60,556 bases of DNA, taken from positions 1 to 60,556 of the forward strand of contig CAMDFK010000023.1 in assembly GCA_945897465.1 (NCBI GenBank), in the 5' to 3' direction. This document shows positions 51,192 through 56,763 of this stretch, in pieces (the stretch's first letter is position 1; each line of letters opens with the position of its first letter). This DNA is from Limnohabitans sp. Rim8 (lineage in GTDB: Bacteria > Pseudomonadota > Gammaproteobacteria > Burkholderiales > Burkholderiaceae_C). The notes below the pieces were generated by a model. It saw only the letters and a list, made by a program, of their open reading frames with translations, was not told the origin of the DNA and searched no databases. The translations under genes and the position numbers were made by a program.

Positions 51192-51233
51192 GGGTTGTAT
51201 TGGACATGATTTTGAAACCCCTGAAAAAAGTCA

Positions 51234-51323
51234 GATCGCCACGCTTCGCTCGCGATGACGTATCACCTTGTGCAGGCGGTGACGTTTTGAATGTCATTGC
51301 GAGCGAAGCGCGGCAATCTATGG
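51234..51323. repeat. Interspersed repeat pair between slyX and metK
   Basis: An inverted copy (51234-51260, CGCTTCGCTCGCGATGACG within) and a direct copy (51293-51323, GTCATTGCGAGCGAAGCGCG within) face each other across 32 bases and could form a stem of about 25 pairs. Same family as at 18754, 20242 and 25916. Confidence 0.85.
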
Positions 51324-51361
51324 ATACCCGAGTGCCCCATGAACCCATTTTGCGCGTTGGA

Positions 51362-51367
51362 TATAAT
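51362..51367 (+). promoter_or_regulatory. metK -10 box
   Basis: A perfect TATAAT. Transcription would start near 51374, so the riboswitch-like pseudoknot would begin at the very 5' end of the RNA. No convincing -35 hexamer was found. Confidence 0.6.
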
Positions 51368-51373
51368 TGACTC

Positions 51374-51430
51374 ATCGCCGAGTTATCTGAACTACTTGCA
51401 GGGCGATTCATAAAACCTGCTAAAGCGTTC
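51374..51430 (+). ncRNA. SAM-II-like riboswitch aptamer in the metK leader
   Basis: The RNA can form an H-type pseudoknot. P1 pairs TCGCC (51375-51379) with GGCGA (51402-51406). P2b pairs GCAG (51398-51401) with CTGC (51417-51420). P2a pairs GAAC (51389-51392) with GTTC (51427-51430). Between P2a and P2b lie TACTT and TAAAGC. The order P1, loop, P2a, internal loop, P2b, A-rich loop with ATAAAA, then GCTAAA is that of SAM-II, whose ligand site uses the conserved GCUAAA. SAM-II is best known in alphaproteobacteria. It lies directly upstream of the SAM synthase gene. All three helices are perfect by eye; no folding or covariance run was made. Confidence 0.6.
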
Positions 51431-51433
51431 GCC

Positions 51434-51494
51434 AGGCTCCGGGTTATCAGGGTCGGCAACGCCGACAAACCCCTGAAACCTTAGGAGCTTTTTT
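51434..51494 (+). terminator. Expression-platform hairpin holding the metK ribosome-binding site
   Basis: A long hairpin: GCTCC (51436-51440) with GGAGC (51484-51488), GGTT with AACC, TCAGGG with CCCTGA, and TCGGC with GCCGA around an AAC loop. The 3' arm ends in six T's (51489-51494), just before the metK ATG. GGAGC is the Shine-Dalgarno of metK, so the same stem would both terminate transcription and hide the ribosome site. Confidence 0.7.
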
Positions 51495-51495
51495 C

Positions 51496-52677
51496 ATGTC
51501 CAGCAATTTCCTCTTCACTTCGGAGTCCGTCTCTGAGGGTCATCCCGACAAGGTCGCCGACCAGATCTCTGACGCGATCCTCGACGCCATCTTCACGCAA
51601 GACCCCCGCAGCCGCGTGGCCGCCGAAACCCTGACCAACACCGGTTTGGTCGTTTTGGCGGGTGAGATCACCACCAACGCGCATGTTGACTACATCCAGG
51701 TCGCCCGCGACACCATCAAGCGCATCGGCTACGACAACACCGACTACGGCATCGACTACAAAGGCTGCGCGGTCATGGTTTGCTACGACAAGCAATCCAA
51801 CGACATCGCCCAAGGCGTGGACCACGCTTCTGACGACCACCTGAACATCGGCGCGGGCGACCAAGGCCTGATGTTCGGTTATGCCTGCAGCGAAACCCCT
51901 GAGCTGATGCCCGCCCCCATCTATTACGCCCACCGTTTGGTCGAGCGCCAGGCCCAGCTGCGCAAAGATGGCCGCCTGCCCTTCTTGCGCCCTGACGCCA
52001 AGAGCCAGGTGACCATGCGTTATGTGGACGGCAAGCCCCACAGCATCGACACCGTGGTGCTCTCTACACAACACAGCCCCGACCAGTCCGAAACCTCGAC
52101 CAAGATGAAGGCCAGCTTCACCGAAGCCATCATCGAAGAGATCATCAAGCCCGTGCTGCCCAAAGAGTGGCTGCAAGACACCAAGTACCTGATCAACCCC
52201 ACAGGCCGCTTCGTCATCGGCGGCCCCCAGGGTGATTGCGGTTTGACGGGCCGCAAGATCATCGTGGACACCTACGGCGGCGCATGCCCCCACGGTGGTG
52301 GCGCGTTTTCGGGTAAGGACCCTTCCAAGGTGGACCGCTCTGCTGCTTATGCCGCACGCTATGTGGCCAAAAACATTGTGGCCGCAGGCTTGGCCACCAA
52401 GTGCCAAATCCAAGTGGCTTACGCCATCGGCGTGGCACGCCCCATGAACATCACGGTGAACACCGAAGGCACAGGCGTGATCTCTGACGATAAGTTGGCC
52501 GCTTTGGTCGCCGAGCACTTTGATCTGCGCCCCAAAGGCATCATCCAGATGCTCGACTTGCTGCGCCCCATCTACAGCAAGACCGCCGCGTATGGTCACT
52601 TTGGTCGCGACGAGCCCGACTTCACTTGGGAGCGCACCGACCGCGCTGCCGCTTTGAAGGCCGCTGCAGGCCTGTAA
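51496..52677 (+). CDS. metK: S-adenosylmethionine synthase
   Basis: A 393-residue enzyme that makes SAM from methionine and ATP. It begins [23 protein letters not shown] (1-23), with the ATP loop SEGHPDK, and shows [12 protein letters not shown], the later [20 protein letters not shown] and [16 protein letters not shown], all highly conserved. It is a single-gene unit with an AGGAG 8 bases upstream, a structured leader and a strong terminator at 52702. Feedback by SAM through that leader would close the loop on its own product. Confidence 0.98.
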
Positions 52678-56374: not shown

Positions 56375-56396
56375 TGGTGGAGCTGGGGGGATTTGA
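56375..56396. repeat. Reconstituted ssrA 3' end (right attachment-type repeat)
   Basis: The copy of the 22-bp direct repeat that lies within the functional tmRNA (acceptor and T-arm region). The matching copy is at 54393-54414. Confidence 0.85.
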
Positions 56397-56763
56397 ACCC
56401 CCGTCCATAAGCCTTTTTCGTACAGTTCTACATGTGTAGTCGTCTGATTTGATTCTCGCCGAATGCGCCGCGCAGCGACACGCTGAACACCCAGCCAGCA
56501 CCCTTGTTTCTCACACCACCCCAAGGTACCCGAGGTGATGCCAGCCCATATGTTTTACCTTGCAGCCAGGACTTTGAGGGGTTTAACCCCCTCATCACCC
56601 TGACCCAGCCTATCGGCCAACTGTTGCAAGGCTCACCGGATTAAGCGGCGAGTGCGAAACGTTCGTCGTTTGCAGTTAGTTTTTTTTCCGAAGTTTTACG
56701 AGGATCAGAACCTCGACATGCCCTGCCACGCGTCCGAACCCATGTCGAAACCAGTGCAGCCCC
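56375..56763 (-). ncRNA. ssrA: Transfer-messenger RNA
   Basis: A one-piece tmRNA of 389 nt that rescues stalled ribosomes. The 5' end GGGGCTG pairs with CAGCTCC before the encoded CCA at 56377-56375; a T-arm TTCAAAT is present. The tag frame (56673-56641) reads ANDERFALAA then TAA, preceded by the A-rich resume region. It is a single-piece form, not the permuted two-piece type. The last 22 bases are duplicated at 54393. Confidence 0.97.

Follow-up and report, generated by a model that had tools for sequence, protein, structure and literature searches.

A SAM-II-related pseudoknot and a predicted translational switch in the metK leader of Limnohabitans sp. Rim8 and other Burkholderiales

The window analysed here is a whole stretch of 60,556 nucleotides from Limnohabitans sp. 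Rim8 (assembly GCA_945897465.1, contig CAMDFK010000023.1). It contains metK, which encodes S-adenosylmethionine (SAM) synthetase, preceded by a leader whose features are collected in Table 1. The initial annotation of this DNA described a TATAAT box, three helices in H-type pseudoknot order with GCTAAA in the ligand position, and a separate hairpin with the metK Shine-Dalgarno sequence in its 3' arm. On re-reading, all of these are present, the helices at the coordinates given for them, and our reading adds one P1 pair, A51374-T51407, beyond 51375-51379/51402-51406. The TATAAT box predicts a transcription start near 51374, which is the 5' end of P1. The region 51432-51512 folds with -29.7 kcal/mol, consistent with the separate hairpin, and the T run overlaps the end of this hairpin. 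A consensus scan found no sigma-70 promoter and no terminator (0 of each), so it is by reading and by RNAfold alone that the promoter and the terminator were called. Between metK and the upstream gene, the window also contains an imperfect inverted repeat (51211-51339) that resembles an intergenic palindromic repeat and draws microRNA matches below the cut-off. Rfam microRNA and snoRNA matches were under their cut-offs and came from unrelated groups, and they were set aside. A tmRNA and a tRNA gene were found at the Rfam cut-off on the minus strand (56375-56763 and 657-746).

Table 1. Coordinates of the features of the metK leader in the window, with the basis of each assignment.
Feature	Position	Strand	Basis and remarks
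-10 box TATAAT	51362-51367	+	Read in sequence; similar spacing by eye in many same-genus leaders
SAM-II-type aptamer, pseudoknot P1/P2a/P2b	51374-51431	+	Pair counts; R1, R2 and RF00521 scores
P1 5' strand	51374-51379	+	Partner 51402-51407; both sides change at 5 of 6 pairs
P1 3' strand	51402-51407	+	Read in sequence; pair counts on 39 leaders
GAGTTA, third strand of pocket	51380-51385	+	RF00521/R2 alignment, base counts
U10 equivalent, G here	51382	+	Numbering by motif alignment
P2a 5' strand GAAC	51389-51392	+	Pairs with GTTC 51427-51430; G-C and A-U both common at one pair
Pocket UU and P2b 5' strand GCAG	51396-51401	+	GCAG at 51398-51401, pairing with CTGC 51417-51420 (sequence reading); pair counts, 39 and 86 leaders
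P2b 3' strand and pocket bases CTGCTAAA	51417-51424	+	GCTAAA at 51419-51424 (sequence reading); pair counts, 39 and 86 leaders
GCGTTCGCC: P2a 3' strand (51427-51430) and predicted antisequestor 5' strand	51425-51433	+	Folding, shuffle test
GGCTCC, anti-Shine-Dalgarno strand	51435-51440	+	Pairs with 51484-51489; folding, shuffle test
GGCAACGC, predicted antisequestor 3' strand	51455-51462	+	Folding, shuffle test
Predicted sequestor hairpin enclosing the ribosome site	51434-51490	+	Folding; GGAG (51484-51487) in 3' arm
Shine-Dalgarno AGGAG of metK	51483-51487	+	Read in sequence
Run of six T, possible lineage-specific terminator tail	51489-51494	+	Read in sequence; counts in leaders
metK, S-adenosylmethionine synthetase, controlled gene	51496-52677	+	Start codon 51496

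The three helices covary across metK leaders. For this analysis, metK genes and their upstream DNA were taken from relatives, and leaders were picked with a pattern that required GAGTTA, TTGC and CTAAAG and that found 135 of 150 loci. The 67 dereplicated leaders have these letters by construction, and so does alignment A1, which contains 39 of the 67; the remaining 28, most of which have long third-loop inserts, were excluded. In A1, 96.1% of the cells in 14 pairs are standard pairs, compared with 26.2-51.9% for slid partners. Both sides change at 9 of the 14 pairs, amounting to 78 cells over the 39 leaders. Mononucleotide shuffles gave 27.3 such cells (sd 5.1), with 0 of 500 as high as 78, and slid versions gave 2-12. 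Variants include GAAC/GTTC to GAC/GTC in P2a, and GCAG/CTGC to GCGG/CCGC and GCGA/TCGC in P2b; in one leader (L087), P1 differs at several pairs at once. Because the 39 leaders had been picked by a pattern with fixed letters, we recounted the pairs on 86 model-matched leaders. Here 1015 of 1032 cells over 12 pairs are paired, and A-U and G-C are both frequent in P2a and P2b. We note that these 86 are full-length matches to a model (R1, see below) that was itself built from pattern-selected leaders; L040, which is cut off, and L037, which has a long insert, were left out. An alignment of related metK leaders had been proposed as a check on the pseudoknot, with a lack of covariance named as the outcome that would speak against it. 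What we found is covariation above both shuffled and slid controls. The helices are short (4-6 pairs each), and one may ask whether a pseudoknot could arise by chance in a conserved leader. The covariation lies far above the controls and, within the family, the model matches 132 of the 133 good genomes; we therefore regard chance as practically negligible.

The element is related to the SAM-II riboswitch. The search with the Rfam SAM-II model (RF00521) that had been suggested earlier gave a mixed result: the leader matches with its motifs in register, and its score of 18.2 bits does not reach the Rfam gathering cut-off of 36 bits. In the loci of 12 relatives, 10 of which carry the element, RF00521 listed no SAM-II at E 1, and the SAM-V model gave no match at E 1 either. 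The SAM-V and SAM/SAH (RF01727) models had no match in the leader at E 10. Two further models were used: R1, made of metK leaders only, and R2, made of 20 canonical SAM-II loci. The window site scores 71.1 bits under R1, which also finds 20 of 20 canonical SAM-II loci (E 1.4e-10 to 1.3e-04). Over the whole window, R2 has a sole match at 51372-51437 (32.9 bits, E 2.7e-07). When offered 40 of the 81 metK loci, R2 finds 36 (E up to 1; weakest E 0.043), with no match in L032, L033, L034 and L049. These reciprocal matches lead us to the view that the metK leader element is a SAM-II relative, one which, judged by sequence comparison, is below the Rfam cut-off and lacks one pocket base. A conserved branch escapes the standard SAM-II model. 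The leader is highly conserved in sequence, and such conservation could also mark a binding site at which a protein or a small RNA, and not a riboswitch, controls metK. We consider this very improbable, since the leader retains the pocket bases and the order of helices known from a proven metabolite aptamer, and the profiles match SAM-II in both directions.

RF00521 itself matches at or above its cut-off in 26 of 150 genomes of the order. Twenty fetched RF00521 loci (L151-L170) precede mainly metX/metZ and, once each, a metH-like gene, metK (L158) and a small gene starting with MFDC (L170). By eye, the aptamer is followed by a hairpin and a T run in most of these 20 loci. In the window genome, the best RF00521 match (C41:8811-8936, 22.4 bits) is not like a methionine-gene leader and was treated as chance. 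Downstream gene names in the RF00521, phylum-wide, small-gene and metX loci were read from translations, except for those tested with Pfam.

Thirteen pocket bases of SAM-II have been called completely conserved (PMC3764141), and our list of pocket bases and triples follows that paper. None of the 86 model-matched metK leaders departs from U11, U12 or U20-C23, and 85 of them keep G42-A47; the exception has GCCAAA, so U44 is C there. The metK leaders therefore keep the sulfonium-side U11 and U21, the adenine contact U44 and the amino-acid contact A47. The position of U10 is different: G is found in 83 of 86 metK leaders, U in 2 and A in 1, and U in 20 of 20 canonical leaders. The window has G and departs from SAM-II at this base. 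A change at a base called invariant may suggest that the ligand of the G10 subtype is a different SAM-cycle compound (for example S-adenosylhomocysteine, methionine or decarboxylated SAM), as with variants of other riboswitch classes; a SAM-I variant binding spermidine instead of SAM has been published (PMC10853860). We think that such a change of ligand is improbable, because the four contacts listed above are kept apart from the single U44 exception, 2 of the 86 metK leaders have U10, and G10 and U10 aptamers share their position before the same kind of small gene. This gene starts with MYDC or MFDC, and the 15 aptamers counted before it comprise 5 with G10 and 10 with U10; three further such loci (L226, L232 and L233) were missed by the counting pattern. 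As both bases occur before the same small gene, G10 is probably compatible with the same ligand as the U10 aptamers.

The window genome has a second aptamer of this kind. Upstream of metX (L283, on contig C6) lies a diverged SAM-II-like aptamer of the U10 type, followed by a terminator-like hairpin and a T run. Under R2, this metX leader scores 25.9 bits over part of the model, and the metX match contains one internal TGA. With a U10-type metX leader and a G10 metK leader, one genome holds both types. We tentatively raise the possibility that the metK leaders are a functionally distinct SAM-II subtype, in which G10 and the translational platform would give SAM synthetase a response unlike that of the metX/metZ switches, either by a different SAM set-point or by another SAM-cycle ligand. 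If true, one genome would run two tuned versions of one aptamer. The natural U10 to G substitution could also test how SAM-II reads the adenine of SAM.

Downstream of the pocket, the leader can form two alternative structures. GCGTTCGCC (51425-51433), with GCGTT[C]GCC as the paired form, is complementary to GGCAACGC (51455-51462) with one bulge, and we call this predicted helix the antisequestor. The antisequestor segment pairs with downstream sequence better than with shuffled DNA, with a mean z of -1.52 over the 67 dereplicated leaders and p<=0.05 in 23; a repeat of the test gave -1.55 (n=65), and four control windows further upstream gave mean z from -0.26 to 0.11. For the window alone the value is not significant (z -1.44, p 0.075), and the signal is that of the whole set. 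The partners change together among leaders, as GCGTTCGCC/GGCAACGC, GTCGCAG/CTGCGGC and GCGTCGCGCCC/GGGTGCAACGC. The initial annotation had instead offered an antiterminator of CCGAG with CTCCGG. That pairing was dropped, as its segment has a mean z of 0.01 over the 67 leaders and the 51425-51433/51455-51462 helix is better supported. The competing structure is the sequestor hairpin. Pairing of the Shine-Dalgarno sequence with upstream bases has a mean z of -1.4, with p<=0.05 in 25 of 65 leaders and z -2.99 in the window, and its partners vary as well (GGCTCC/GGAGCT, AGACTCCAA/TTGGAGTCT and CTGCTCC/GGAGCAG). The tests of the Shine-Dalgarno sequence and of the P2a strand used 65 of the 67 leaders, as L101 and L138 have no recognised Shine-Dalgarno sequence.

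When the P2a strand is unavailable, the probability that the Shine-Dalgarno sequence is paired is 0.85 versus 0.67 in shuffled sequences, and it is above shuffled in 54 of 65 leaders. Before the Shine-Dalgarno sequence is made, the P2a strand is paired with a probability of 0.77 versus 0.62, higher than shuffled in only 47 of 65; the window has 0.74 versus 0.70. The antisequestor probability is below 0.5 in 10 of 65 leaders, and that of Shine-Dalgarno pairing in 4 of 65. For window transcripts running from 51421 to ends at 51464-51476, the free minimum-energy fold is the antisequestor (-17.5), and the part from 51434 onward alone gives -7.6 to -13.2. At transcript end 51480, the sequestor hairpin has replaced the antisequestor. 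The full-length transcript (51421-51512) has a free fold of -31.2 with the sequestor, compared with -22.0 when the antisequestor is forced. Since the full-length fold favours the sequestor, the ON state must be kinetic: the full-length fold gives no switch by itself, and the growing-transcript view does. As modelled, the two sets of folds fit a kinetic switch.

These observations suggest the following mechanism. When SAM is low, GCGUUCGCC just after the pocket would pair with GGCAACGC once the latter is transcribed, and this antisequestor would keep CUCC (51437-51440) from the Shine-Dalgarno sequence, so that metK is translated. When SAM is bound, the pseudoknot would hold GUUC in P2a and block the antisequestor; CUCC would then pair with GGAG (51484-51487), and translation of metK would stop. 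In the genus of the window, the same hairpin ends at the T run and may also terminate transcription.

This last point bears on a different account, in which control is transcriptional: SAM would cause transcripts to end at the T run, and the antisequestor would serve as antiterminator. The window has a strong hairpin ending at six T, a T run of at least 5 is found in 41 of 42 leaders of the window's sequence group (not dereplicated), and canonical SAM-II aptamers in the order are mostly followed by terminator-like hairpins by eye. Over the dereplicated set the picture differs, as a T run of at least 5 between the Shine-Dalgarno sequence and the start codon occurs in 5 of 65 leaders and Shine-Dalgarno pairing is above chance. 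The consensus scan lists no terminator, and the T run doubles as the spacer between the Shine-Dalgarno sequence and the start codon. We consider transcriptional control unlikely as the main mechanism, and the T run is possibly a lineage-specific addition to translational control. The hairpin had earlier been proposed both to terminate transcription and to block translation; a separate hairpin that can hide the Shine-Dalgarno sequence is supported across the set, and termination as a general mechanism is not supported.

We believe it is highly likely that the metK leader acts as an OFF riboswitch that senses SAM and belongs to the SAM-II superfamily, namely a translational, metK-linked subtype of Burkholderiales, for which we infer the ligand, the direction of control and the kinetics. 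The SAM-II homology, the covariation of the aptamer helices and the set-wide, above-chance pairing of the antisequestor and of the Shine-Dalgarno sequence were computed. Function as a SAM OFF switch appears well supported by structure and homology.

Comparison with known systems places the element close to SAM-II. It shares with RF00521 the H-type order of P1 and P2a/P2b, the GA.UU, UUGC and GCUAAA pocket motifs, the association with methionine/SAM genes and the two-way profile homology. It differs in its score below the cut-off, in G10, in its place before metK and in its platform, which lies separately downstream and apparently uses the P2a 3' strand a second time. The SAM-II riboswitch of Sinorhizobium meliloti metA, where SAM down-regulates translation through the Shine-Dalgarno sequence (PMC9373788), and that of Sargasso Sea metX are alike in translational down-regulation. 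In the metX aptamer, P2a itself covers the ribosome site (PMC6061858), whereas in the metK element the hairpin is separate and the Shine-Dalgarno sequence lies ~50 bases after P2a. SAM-V has nearly the same pocket and fold as SAM-II and is also translational (PMC6061858), but its Rfam model has no match in the metK leader at E 10. The SAM/SAH motif (RF01727) also lies directly upstream of metK, but it is described from Rhodobacterales only in PMC2864571 and has no match in this leader.

The initial annotation described SAM-II as mainly alphaproteobacterial and the present arrangement as unusual for a betaproteobacterium. The idea that SAM-II is foreign to this group is not supported, as Barrick and Breaker (2007) already reported SAM-II in beta-proteobacteria, with terminators (PMC2258182), and Bordetella bronchiseptica appears in a figure legend of a 2005 paper (PMC1273637). 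A metXZ RNA element described by Leyn and colleagues in 2014 (PMC4239095) shares beta-proteobacteria and the pathway with the metK element, and differs in its terminator platform and U10. Our RF00521 matches before metX/metZ fit its description, and those listed attain the Rfam threshold for SAM-II; judged by description, the 2014 element thus looks like SAM-II. The same survey, as far as its text was available, leaves beta-proteobacterial metK without a known regulator (PMC4239095). A metK-type SAM-II of Burkholderiales was not found in the portion of the open-access literature searched.

Tandem SAM-II aptamers, with the terminator type first and the ribosome-site type second, were reported in 2022 (PMC9481103), and the sole metK mention in the available text of that paper is a SAM-I/preQ1-II case. 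A like pairing of aptamers is found in relatives' loci before the small MYDC/MFDC gene, mostly with a MATE-like transporter; the window metK differs in having a single aptamer. The small gene has ~95-115 codons (L186, L192, L193, L196, L223-L234, L240 and L241) and, in the four cases run against Pfam, no match. Upstream of it lie one or two SAM-II-type aptamers, the terminator type preceding the ribosome-site type, and most loci continue with a MATE-like transporter (identified as MatE by Pfam in L193 and by eye elsewhere). Other contexts were also met. In the window's family, a U10-type aptamer precedes a gene of ~140 codons with an MHGLA or MHELA start and no assigned function (L284-L287), with a similar layout of antisequestor and Shine-Dalgarno sequence by eye. 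L235 has an HD-domain gene (Pfam) downstream of two aptamers, and a second, divergent metK comes next. A different family of the class (f55) has a U10-type aptamer in front of a gene of 102-106 codons, function unassigned (L213 and L215-L222).

The element is widespread among relatives of the window genome. By R1, it is upstream of metK in 76 of the 81 metK loci examined, which is the methionine/SAM-gene context of SAM-II; these loci are the closest MetK relatives and thus an uneven sample. R1 found no element in the other five (L063, L075, L077, L094 and L104). The sampled metK loci include Variovorax, Acidovorax, Polaromonas, Cupriavidus, Ralstonia, Paraburkholderia, Bordetella, Achromobacter, Massilia and Polynucleobacter. 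In the family of the window genome, R1 matches 144 of 150 genomes at E 0.001, and all but one of the 133 good ones; genome counts are model matches, not each confirmed at metK. The window genome has a single R1 match at E 0.1. In the other families of the order, with one genome each and DNA searched 340-400 bases upstream, the metK leader has the element in 12 of 47 and lacks it in 35 of 47. At the level of the phylum, E 0.01 matches occur in 51 of 349 genomes, 22 of which belong to the same family or order; the loci read from f55 have, as given above, U10-type aptamers before a different gene. We conclude that this is a real, overlooked SAM-II subtype that is near-universal in the family of the window genome.

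The strand common to P2a and the predicted antisequestor offers a testable account of how SAM-II may exert control ~50 bases from the ribosome site. From its sequence, the metK leader very probably places SAM synthetase under feedback control, and the element would supply a metK regulator for the family of the window genome and for part of its order.
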